Positions 31,846 through 42,278 of a DNA stretch of 64,000 nt are shown in pieces. The stretch is from Verrucomicrobiota bacterium (GTDB lineage: Bacteria; Verrucomicrobiota; Verrucomicrobiia; Verrucomicrobiales; Akkermansiaceae): positions 1-64,000 of the forward strand of contig VHCM01000002.1 in assembly GCA_016871685.1 (NCBI GenBank), written 5' to 3'. Both the position numbers and the translations under genes were made by a program. The notes below the pieces were generated by a model that saw only the letters and a program-made list of their open reading frames with translations, searched no databases and had not been told where the DNA came from. Each line of letters begins with the position of its first letter. Position 1 is the stretch's first letter.

Positions 31846-32192
31846 TCAAGCCGTGCGGCGGCGGCGCAGCAGCAACGCGGCACCAAACAAGCCGAGCACG
31901 GAGGTGGTCGGCTCGGGAATGGGTGCGCCGCCAATGTTCAGGGTCACCGACTCACCGCCGGAGAAGTTATAGACATAAGAGCCATTGTTCACCAGCTCCA
32001 TCTCGGCCAAGGTGCGATTGTCCATTTGCCAGGTCGCGCTCATTTCGGTGCCCGCCACGTAGTTTTGATCGAGAAAGATATTCGCGTTGCCATTAAGCAC
32101 CCGAATGGTGAATGCCGTGAAACCGGTGGCGCCGGCGGTGAGCGCGAATCCCTCCCGCTCGACCCAGAACGGCGCACAGCCGGTCGGTCGAG
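31846..32192 (-). pseudogene. PEP-CTERM sorting-domain protein lacking its N-terminus
   Basis: The C-terminus has a clear PEP-CTERM signal: IPEPTTSVLGLFGAALLLRRRRTA, that is, Pro-Glu-Pro, a hydrophobic helix and an Arg-rich end, used for exosortase-dependent sorting. The frame stays protein-like upstream of the track's GTG start (EREGFALTAGATGFTAFTIR), then runs into the ~50-bp repeat at 32193, with no signal peptide or start. Only ~115 residues remain, whereas PEP-CTERM proteins normally have an N-terminal signal and are longer. It appears truncated at its 5' end by the repeat/vapBC cassette. No exosortase is in the window. Confidence 0.65.
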
Positions 32193-32243
32193 GCCATCGG
32201 CAGCAGACGACGGAGGAAAAACGGTCAGGATTTTCAGCCTGAC
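32193..32243 (+). repeat. Left copy of ~50-bp direct repeat flanking vapBC
   Basis: GCCATCGGCAGCAG...CAGCCTGAC, 51 bp, aligns with 33051-33100 in the same orientation at about 86% identity (six substitutions, one gap). It marks the point where the PEP-CTERM coding sequence is lost. The opposite strand reads GTCAGGCTGAAAATCCTGAC. Confidence 0.75.
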
Positions 32244-32268
32244 TACACTTCAGTTGATGAATTGGTCA

Positions 32269-32646
32269 CTACCACCCGATCCGGGCGATTCCGGTGACTT
32301 GATCAAAATGGCAATCGCGGCTGATGACCGGCAACTTGTGTTGGCGAGCGATGGCAGCGATCCAGAGATCGTTCATCGGGATGGGTGTTCCAGCTGACGT
32401 GAGCTGGAGGCGGATTTTCGCATAGTGACGGGTGGTGGTTTCATCGACTGCGAGGATTGTGGTCGTGGCGAGCGCTTCAACCCACCATGCCGTCATTTTC
32501 TCGCGGAAGCGCGATTTCAAAATGCCGAAGCGGAATTCCGCCAACGCCGGGACTGGAACACAGAGACGGTCCGCGTGTTCGATGCGCCGGATGAAGGAGG
32601 GTTCATTGAGCCACCAAGCGGAAAGACCGTTGGTATCGAGGATCAT
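32269..32646 (-). CDS. vapC: VapC-type PIN-domain ribonuclease toxin
   Basis: A 125-residue PIN-domain protein. The acidic cluster is visible: Asp in MILDTNG, Glu in ALAEFRFG, Asp in MNDLWIAAIA and Asp in SRDCHF. PIN toxins cleave RNA, often tRNA or rRNA, in a Mg-dependent way and are held inactive by the partner antitoxin. ATG 32646 overlaps the antitoxin stop as ATGA, which supports this start over the GTG at 32652. It lies between two ~50-bp direct repeats in a lower-GC patch, suggesting that the module arrived as a unit. Confidence 0.85.
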   Translation of the reverse strand: MILDTNGLSAWWLNEPSFIRRIEHADRLCVPVPALAEFRFGILKSRFREKMTAWWVEALATTTILAVDETTTRHYAKIRLQLTSAGTPIPMNDLWIAAIARQHKLPVISRDCHFDQVTGIARIGW

Positions 32647-32903
32647 TTCCACTCCTCCTCTTCGATTTGCTCGAAGTTCTCATCCACGAGTTGCTCGATG
32701 CGCTTGAGTTCCGCCACCATCTCCGGGTCATGCGCGGCAATGCCTGCAAACTTCATCCACGGCTTCTCCGCCGGATTCGGGCGCTTGCTCAACTTGTCCT
32801 GCAGCGCCTCGGTGATGTAGTCCTTCAGACGGATGCCCTGCCGTGCGGCCGTGGCTTTCACCTCACGAAACAGGGAATCCGGGAGTTCAATCGTCGTTCG
32901 CAC
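32643..32903 (-). CDS. vapB: VapB-type antitoxin (ribbon-helix-helix)
   Basis: About 86 residues from a GTG start at 32903 (VRTTIELPDSLFREVKATAA), giving an RHH DNA-binding fold (RTTIELPDSLFREV...GIRLKDYITEAL) and an acidic toxin-binding tail (ENFEQIEEEEWK). The track ORF starts 25 codons earlier (32978), but that extension is not typical of the family. The stop overlaps the vapC ATG by 4 nt. RHH antitoxins normally repress their own operon. The A+T-rich stretch at 32910-32940 is the likely promoter region. Confidence 0.78.
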   Translation of the reverse strand: MRTTIELPDSLFREVKATAARQGIRLKDYITEALQDKLSKRPNPAEKPWMKFAGIAAHDPEMVAELKRIEQLVDENFEQIEEEEWK

Positions 32904-33050
32904 AAAAGCATATTTACATTTTTTCACGATCCTGCAAGCACGAAATACCTCAAATTCAATAAGGCGCGGGCGGGGCAATGAACGGGGGCGACAGATGCCG
33001 GACGCGCATCAATCGATGTCCAGATCAACCTTTGCAAACATCCTTTCGCT

Positions 33051-33100
33051 GCCATCGGCAGCAGGCGATGGAGGGAAACAGTCAAGATTTGCAGCCTGAC
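33051..33100 (+). repeat. Right copy of ~50-bp direct repeat flanking vapBC
   Basis: GCCATCGGCAGCAG...CAGCCTGAC, 50 bp, in direct orientation with 32193-32243. It contains the stop codon of the SGNH hydrolase (TGA, 33082-33084 on the minus strand), so the last residues of that protein (MGSGCKS) are repeat-derived. Its outer edge reads AAATGGGGTCAGGC on the minus strand, matching the REP-like core near 8.3 kb. Confidence 0.75.
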
Positions 33101-33774
33101 CCCATTTCCGGAAACCACCGCATGAGTTCCGCCGCGACGAGTTCGTGGCCGGTGCGGTTCGGGTGGTTGATCCATGACAAGAGACCGTCGAGGCGTTCGC
33201 GTCCGGCATGGCGCAGGCAGGCATCGAGGCTGTCGACCAGGCCGACGCCGGATTCCGCCGCAAGCCCGCGGATCTGCGCGGCGTGGGCCTCCAGCTCGTG
33301 CGCGTCTTCGCCATCGTAATCGGCGCATTGGGTGTTGTCGGGCGTGGGGGTGAGCAACAGCACGCGGACGCCGCGGGCGAGCGCGGCGTCGATCATCGAC
33401 CGCCATGCGTCGCGGGCGCGGTCGGGACCGAGCCTGCGGTCGTTGAGCGCGTAATCGAGCGTGACGACGTCCGGCCGGTGGCACAGCACCTCGCGTTCAA
33501 ATCGCGCCGCGCCGGACTCCGAGTTCTCGCCGCCCGATGCGGTGACGATCACATTGAACGCGGCATGGGGGAAGCGGTGGCAGAGCCCTTCACGCAGCAG
33601 GTGGGGATAGGCGTCGAGCGCGCGGACTTGCGGCGTGGCGAAGTACCCGGCGGGCACGCTGTGGCCGTGGCAGACGATGTGCACGTTGCGGTTGCCCGGC
33701 CAAGGAGTGCGCATCGCGACGAGCACCTCGTCGAGATACGTCGCGGGGTCGGCGGGGCGTCCGTCTGCGGTCAT
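33082..33774 (-). CDS. SGNH/GDSL-type esterase, 3' end replaced by repeat sequence
   Basis: A 230-residue hydrolase. Block I is CHGHSVPAGYF with the catalytic Ser, block III is LDYALNDRR with Asn, and block V is NHPNRTGHEL with the His, so the SGNH set is complete. Such enzymes hydrolyse esters, often acetyl groups on polysaccharides. There is no signal peptide. The final residues GSGCKS come from the direct-repeat copy at 33051-33100, so the native C-terminus may have been altered by that insertion. It lies about 40 bp downstream of the zinc-ribbon gene and may share its transcript. Confidence 0.78.
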   Translation of the reverse strand: MTADGRPADPATYLDEVLVAMRTPWPGNRNVHIVCHGHSVPAGYFATPQVRALDAYPHLLREGLCHRFPHAAFNVIVTASGGENSESGAARFEREVLCHRPDVVTLDYALNDRRLGPDRARDAWRSMIDAALARGVRVLLLTPTPDNTQCADYDGEDAHELEAHAAQIRGLAAESGVGLVDSLDACLRHAGRERLDGLLSWINHPNRTGHELVAAELMRWFPEMGSGCKS

Positions 33775-40808: not shown

Positions 40809-40979
40809 GTTCGTCGTCATCGGTGGTTATGCGCTCGCTGCCCACGGGCGGCCGCGCTACACGGGTGACAAATCCCCTTCATCTCGCTTGATGACTTGTT
40901 GAAAAACAAACGGGCCACCGCCAGAAGCAAGGATCTCATCGATCTGGGACTTCTGAAGGATCCCGGCCAATCCACCTGA
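40738..40979 (+). pseudogene. Nucleotidyltransferase (AbiEii/MNT-like) remnant with internal deletion
   Basis: The 5' part reads MNPKLEIHRDFKECIGLLLS and VEFVVIGGYALAAHGRPRYTGD, the GG-Y-A start and HGRPRYT(G/K)D typical of this family. After TGD the catalytic centre and ~80-100 residues are absent. The family C-terminus then resumes in a different frame as FISLDDLLKNKRATARSKDL and IDLGLLKDPGQST, ending at TGA 40977-40979. This is an internal deletion with frameshift, so the product is non-functional. It separates sufB from sufD by a few hundred bases. Confidence 0.75.
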
Positions 40980-40994
40980 ATCACACACCGGCCC

Positions 40995-42278
40995 ATGAGC
41001 ACCACCGACACACACTCCACCACCCTCCCCGACTGGTTCACCGCCCGCCGCGACGCCGCGAGGCTGCGCTTCGAGGCCACGCCCGCACCGAAACGCAACG
41101 ATGAGGCCTGGCGCTTCTCGAACCTCAGTCAGCTCGACTTCGCCGGCTTCACGAGCAACTCGGGTCAAGCACCCGCGACGGATCACCTGATCGCGCGCTC
41201 CACCGGCATCGGGAGCACCGCCGCGAAGCTCGTCTTCGTCAACGACACGCTGGTTCACTCGGAGACCACCCGGCTTCCCGCGGGCATCATTTGCCTGCCA
41301 CTGGCCGAGGCGCTGGTTTCGCATCCGGACCTCGTGGAGCAACACTTCATGAAACAGGAAACCCGTCTGGGCTCGGCGAAGTACGCCGCATGGCACGAGG
41401 CGATGGTTGCCAACGGGCTCTTCGTGCATGTCGCCGACCACGTGGAAGTCGCCGATCCCATCGAAGTGCATCACTGGATCGCGGGCGGCAACACCGGCAT
41501 CTTCCCGCACACGCTGGTGGTCACCGGCCGGTCGTCGAAGGTGCGCGTGATCGACATCTTCCGCTCGGCGGCGGATCTCGAGCCGGGGCTGGCGATCGCA
41601 TTCAACGACTTGTCGGCCGGCGAGAACTCGACGCTCGATTACATCGCCATCCAGGCTTTCAACGAGGTGACGCGCATGATCCAGATCCACGAGACTTCGG
41701 CGGCGCGCGACGCGTCAGCCAAGGCGTTCATCCTCAACACCGGTGCCTCGTGGGCGCGCAACGAGTCGATGTCGCGGCTCGAGGGGCCCGGCGCGCGTTC
41801 CGACATGCTCGCGGTGTCCATCCCGGCGCGCGAACAGGAATACGACCAGCGCACCTTCCAGCACCACGTCTCCGAGGGCGCCTGTTCCGATTTGCTTTAC
41901 AAGAACTCGCTCTACGACAATGCGAAAACCGTCTTCTCCGGACTGATCTTCGTCGACGAGGGCGCGCACCACACCGACGCCTACCAGACGTGCCGCAACC
42001 TGTTGATGAGCGACACCGCCGAGGCGAATTCGATGCCCGGTCTGGAAATCAACGCTGACCAGGTGAAATGCTCGCACGGATCGACATCCGCGCAGATCAG
42101 CGACGAGGAGATCTTCTACCTCTGCGCCCGCGGCATCGACCCCGTGAGCGCGCGCCAGCTGATCGCCCGGGGGTTTTCCGTGGAAGTGGTCGAACGCATC
42201 GGCAACGAGGCTGCGGAGGAACTCGTCCTGCGCTTCGTCGACGACAAGTTCGCCCGCATCGCCGGCGGCGGCGCGTGA
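40995..42278 (+). CDS. sufD: Fe-S cluster assembly protein SufD
   Basis: A 427-residue SufD. The N-terminal helical part (DWFTARRDAARLRFEATPAPKRNDEAWRFSNLSQL) is followed by the beta-helix with YDQRTFQHHVSEGACSDLLYK, GLIFVDEGAHHTDAYQTCRNLLMSDTAEANSMPGLEI and QVKCSHGSTSAQISDEEIFYLCARGID. His in the final helix-turn region and the Cys before SHG are conserved in SufD. It forms the SufBC2D scaffold. The start ATG follows the nucleotidyltransferase remnant by 15 bp. Confidence 0.93.
   Translation: MSTTDTHSTTLPDWFTARRDAARLRFEATPAPKRNDEAWRFSNLSQLDFAGFTSNSGQAPATDHLIARSTGIGSTAAKLVFVNDTLVHSETTRLPAGIICLPLAEALVSHPDLVEQHFMKQETRLGSAKYAAWHEAMVANGLFVHVADHVEVADPIEVHHWIAGGNTGIFPHTLVVTGRSSKVRVIDIFRSAADLEPGLAIAFNDLSAGENSTLDYIAIQAFNEVTRMIQIHETSAARDASAKAFILNTGASWARNESMSRLEGPGARSDMLAVSIPAREQEYDQRTFQHHVSEGACSDLLYKNSLYDNAKTVFSGLIFVDEGAHHTDAYQTCRNLLMSDTAEANSMPGLEINADQVKCSHGSTSAQISDEEIFYLCARGIDPVSARQLIARGFSVEVVERIGNEAAEELVLRFVDDKFARIAGGGA

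Follow-up and report, generated by a model that had tools for sequence, protein, structure and literature searches.

In the window, the 64,000-nucleotide stretch of DNA analysed here, which lies in a 2.27-Mb verrucomicrobial assembly of 189 contigs, a vapBC module stands between two direct repeats that run up to or into the genes on either side, raising the question of whether these repeats are the ends of a mobile toxin-antitoxin cassette or came to lie there in some other way. A sequence-only reading of the locus had favoured the cassette, proposing movement by homologous recombination or by a transposase acting in trans on REP-like ends. We find that the repeats are members of a family that forms the ends of a transposase gene, and we consider it likely that vapBC is an independent module, so placed through adjacency and local duplication and involving no purpose-built mobile cassette. 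The coordinates of the features are collected in Table 1.

Table 1. Features of the vapBC locus, in window coordinates.
Feature	Position	Strand	Description
3' part of probable PEP-CTERM gene	31846..32190	-	open frame reaching copy 1
Repeat copy 1	32193..32251	+	diverged transposase-end repeat with its core at 32223-32249, and a further 30 nt or so common only to copy 2
Terminator-like hairpin in copy 1	32224..32243	-	GTCAGG/CCTGAC with U5 after it, 25 nt downstream of the vapC stop
vapC, predicted PIN-domain toxin gene	32269..32652	-	PF01850, E = 1.2e-15; 77-89% amino acid identity in relatives
Conserved vapBC segment	32271..32945		coding region and promoter side, in ten related genomes
vapB, predicted antitoxin gene	32643..32927	-	GTG start, placed by alignment with the ATG of relatives
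Repeat copy 2	33051..33108	+	transposase-end repeat whose core (33080-33106) matches the consensus, with the same 30-nt extension
SGNH/GDSL hydrolase gene	33082..33774	-	PF13472; last residues and stop (MGSGCKS*) from copy 2

Two related repeats flank vapBC in direct orientation

Aligning 32193-32243 with 33051-33100 gives 44 identical columns out of 51 (86.3%, one gap), and the homology continues to 32251 and 33108, respectively (49 of 59 columns, 83.1%). Copy 2 retrieves copy 1 in a whole-genome search at E = 3e-10, and the flank-versus-flank alignment score of 38 far exceeds the maximum of 15 among 100 shuffles. The direct repeats of about 50 bp and 86% identity that the sequence-only reading had described are thus confirmed, as are its statements that the repeats enclose a vapBC module and that no transposase lies between them.

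The two copies have in common about 30 nt beyond the family core, which are absent from all other copies and occur nowhere else in the genome. We considered this extension as a separate repeat family and rejected the idea, the genome holding no others and a collection-wide pattern scan returning six matches in unrelated organisms. Given this shared extension, the two copies are probably related through local duplication, one being derived from the other.

The palindrome of the repeat is modest, with a stem of 4-6 bp and an 8-nt loop, and the folds of the window copies are mostly no better than those of shuffled sequences, the exception being copy 1 on the + strand (z = -2.7). Despite departing from the family core, copy 1 has, on the vapC strand, a perfect 6-bp stem and then U5, making a terminator role possible; a scan found such sites to be no commoner than in shuffles, and we do not regard copy 1 as a proven terminator. 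Nor can it be described simply as a decayed copy, since it has a better stem than the consensus does, and decay alone is therefore not certain. An Rfam search found only a tRNA nearby.

The repeats belong to a dispersed transposase-end family

Copies aligned across the genome, which have unrelated flanks, yield the consensus AAATGGGGTCAGGCTGCAAATCTTGACA. The family comprises 23 copies, 22 of them exact for an 18-base core and the last being copy 1, with three mismatches; a reversed control pattern gave one match, and two further three-mismatch matches of the true pattern look unrelated. Most copies carry no cargo. Contigs C15, C28, C52 and C59 carry inverted pairs whose core starts are 94-163 bp apart, and by a hand count a gene 3' end lies on the GGGG side of about 17 of the 21 assessable copies, the genes having been predicted with a simple codon model. 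Contig C15 (L059 2055-3474) also holds a second direct pair, spaced by 1.24 kb, that exactly encloses an ADP-ribosylglycohydrolase gene and is followed by an inverted copy; no extended homology was found between the two members of that pair. Two copies, at 47327 on contig C4 and at 1366 on contig C63, have the tip AAATGGGGTCAG repeated in tandem immediately outside them, and in relatives (L108, L109) the transposase gene has tip duplications of a similar kind at its flanks.

The sequence-only reading had suggested looking for a RAYT/IS200-type transposase elsewhere in the genome, and such a gene is present on contig C4 (about 40911-41981), closely flanked by an inverted pair of the same repeat; the REP-like character attributed to the window copies is likewise upheld. 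The element as a whole (contig C4, about 40863-42021; L058 2865-4018) consists of a RAYT-like transposase gene within perfect 30-bp inverted ends, which match at 30 of 30 bp and contain GGGGTCAG. Its product matches the Y1 transposase domain PF01797 over the cut-off (E = 5e-12), an HUH motif (H63-Y64-H65) is conserved in an orthologue, and the best NCBIfam match is the REP-associated tyrosine transposase NF047646, at 59 bits against a cut-off of 80. The orthologues with 73-75% identity (in G195, G203, G187 and G083) have ends reading GGGGTCAGTGTGCAAATCTTGACA or close to it, and inverted ends that contain GGGGTCAG are found in most of the remoter ones (36-43%) too; the matching ends of the orthologues mostly start with GGGGTCAG. 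In 18 relatives, selected partly because they contained matches, the core pattern occurs 0-3 times per genome against 23 copies here, from which the amplification appears specific to this genome among the relatives searched.

In excerpts of Di Nocera et al. (2013; PMC3733652), several terminal repeats of the TIRtron/TIRYT class are described as sharing GGGGWSAS and some as forming moderately abundant families; REPs are said to lie mainly downstream of genes, GTAG REPs often providing stop codons. Our repeats fit this class, the transposase having a Y1 domain with HUH, its gene lying close between inverted ends that carry GGGGWSAS, and the ends being also dispersed as single and paired copies. 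Unlike the elements in the excerpts, however, the copies here give a whole MGSGCKS* tail to three genes, and the AAATGGGGTCAGGCTGCAAATCTTGACA family is not among the families named there. The RAYT and REP/REPIN systems (PMC2817692, PMC6006769) likewise comprise a single Y1 transposase gene between two inverted copies of a repeat that is dispersed mainly to sites downstream of genes, with ends that change along with the orthologous transposase. In contrast to those systems, our repeat seems to have a weak palindrome, and it has 23 copies where hundreds are common in REP families, and in place of the canonical GTAG/GTGG tag its foot reads TGGG/GGGG.

Repeat copies rewrite the ends of genes

The SGNH gene ends within copy 2 (ATG GGG TCA GGC TGC AAA TCT TGA, read as MGSGCKS*), so that the repeat does supply its stop codon and last residues, as had been proposed. 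Repeat copies end two further genes with the same tail, ribD, which adjoins the C4 transposase gene and ends through the right end of that element, and the aspartyl-tRNA synthetase gene on contig C36 (L065 4638-4664), which ends ...ITKMGSGCKS*. The synthetase aligns with solved structures as far as residue 607 of 616, and most SGNH homologues terminate within a few residues of the repeat start; on these grounds, the rewritten tails look harmless.

The companion claim, that copy 1 truncates a PEP-CTERM gene, is less secure. The motif scores just over the Pfam cut-off and the frame runs upstream into copy 1, but no signal peptide was seen and no full-length relative was found in a search of the genome itself; a 5' truncation is probable.

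vapBC occurs in related genomes without the repeat

The module resembles other type II VapBC systems in its PIN-domain toxin, its small upstream antitoxin gene, their 10-nt overlap and its patchy distribution. Set against those systems, its genes are nothing unusual, and what distinguishes it is the unrelated direct repeats that bracket it in several genomes. By its predicted toxin and antitoxin roles, it is an ordinary toxin-antitoxin module. The antitoxin has a weak ParD match under the Pfam cut-off and is 76-86% identical to the antitoxins adjoining the same vapC in relatives.

The 675-bp vapBC segment has 74.9-86.5% nucleotide identity across ten related genomes, in flanks that differ between genomes except for the locus-sharing pairs G012/G024 and G105/G169. 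None of the ten has the window repeat beside vapBC: six loci gave no match at up to 5 errors, and the other four have no GGGGTCAG within 200 nt. Where measured, VapB and VapC are 76-89% identical, compared with medians mostly near 50% for other proteins against the same genomes (a small sample with paralogues mixed in), a difference that points to horizontal spread of vapBC between species, independently of the repeats. In G012, G024 and G016, the vapB-promoter side of the vapBC segment has GGGGTCAG or CTGACCCC at a distance of 18-21 nt, against 150 nt in the window. In G012 the tip is part of a heptamer minisatellite, where proximity may mean little.

Other direct repeats bracket vapBC in some relatives

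In G024 the module is bracketed by unrelated direct repeats of 282 bp (95% identity) and in G105 by another unrelated pair of 447 bp (90%), partly kept in G169. A bracketing score of at least 30 was reached at 4 of 10 testable vapBC loci, or 3 of 9 with G105 and G169 counted once. The corresponding figures were 1.7% for sliding windows, 1 in 20 for other vapC loci and 0 in 32 for matched small loci, the last giving p of about 0.002 to 0.008 in a one-sided Fisher test. The comparison is post hoc, with the prompting locus among those counted, and several of the brackets lie in repeat-rich spacers; the excess, seen in three independent lineages including that of the window, is no more than suggestive. 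No bracketing was found within 600 bp of vapBC in G016, G032, G028, G051 or G189, and a literature search for repeats flanking vapBC, judged by titles, returned no fitting title. In G105 (L191 5797-7421) and G169 (L193), vapBC sits inside a repeat array, and the adjoining repeat resembles, by eye, a fragment of an S49/SppA-type peptidase.

Origin of the arrangement

IS200/IS605-type enzymes act on one strand, and two hairpins in the same orientation could therefore in principle serve as the left and right ends of a vapBC cassette moved in trans by a RAYT-like transposase. A matching transposase gene is present in the genome, and the tip proximity on the promoter side in three relatives, shared by 0.8% of background windows in a post hoc count, might also be read that way. 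Yet the ends of the transposase gene itself are inverted, copy 1 departs from an otherwise identical core, vapBC occurs in ten relatives without this repeat, and the 23 scattered copies are mostly without cargo. The last two observations are those that the sequence-only reading had itself named as refuting the cassette, which is thus not supported and which we hold to be highly improbable. Recombination may nonetheless have contributed to the local duplication around vapBC.

We favour instead a course in which a RAYT-like HUH/Y1 transposase of the TIRtron type, encoded on contig C4, would disperse the AAATGGGGTCAGGCTGCAAATCTTGACA family, whose copies would settle for the most part at the 3' ends of genes or just beyond them. 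The SGNH and vapC genes are co-directional and each has a copy after it, which gives two direct repeats without any cassette, the placement at the 3' ends of co-directional genes accounting for their orientation. The module itself would be an independently spreading toxin-antitoxin system that these ends do not carry, and a local duplication, preceding or accompanying the arrival of vapBC, would have produced one window copy from the other. Against this course, independent insertions would leave the 30-nt extension unexplained, and two copies this close exceed random placement (mean 0.28 neighbour pairs under 1.3 kb), although clustering is a feature of the family as a whole. No copy of the repeat was seen to move, and the search for an empty site was negative, the loci of SGNH homologues in relatives having neither vapBC nor the other tested window genes in their 1.5-kb flanks.

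The duplication could also be a by-product of the entry of vapBC by homologous or homology-assisted recombination, or by another target-duplicating event, which would leave the local sequence, here a repeat copy with the 30 nt beside it, in direct orientation on both sides of the module; the repeats would then not be mobility ends. This account is compatible with the course we favour, concerning only the duplication; it draws on the extension that copies 1 and 2 alone possess and on the unrelated brackets in G024 and G105, together with the 4 of 10 loci set against 0 of 32 matched ones. The post hoc test with its prompting locus, the five relatives without brackets, the brackets within repeat arrays and the lack of an empty site count against it, and we regard it as unlikely. 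Direct repeats normally lose what they enclose, but those around vapBC, of any origin, might alternatively persist through addiction, in that a deletion between them would lose the module and poison the cell, explaining unrelated brackets without a special insertion mechanism; with only 1 of 20 other vapC loci bracketed, and VapC toxicity putative, we think this quite improbable. It is distinctly unlikely, too, that this vapBC family travels as a bare segment of about 690 bp, from promoter to stop, leaving or keeping target duplications (60 bp in the window, 282 bp in G024 and 447 bp in G105) through an uncharacterised target-duplicating integration or through addiction.

Significance

These results settle the identity of the repeats that bracket vapBC and argue against a REP-ended toxin cassette. 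With identical cores here and few copies in relatives, often just the transposase's own ends, they describe a transposase-end family that would have spread recently in one lineage, rewriting three gene ends with the same MGSGCKS tail as it did so. If the excess of brackets around vapBC holds in a larger sample, the means by which small toxin-antitoxin modules with no transposase of their own gain entry to genomes, or stabilise duplications, would become testable.
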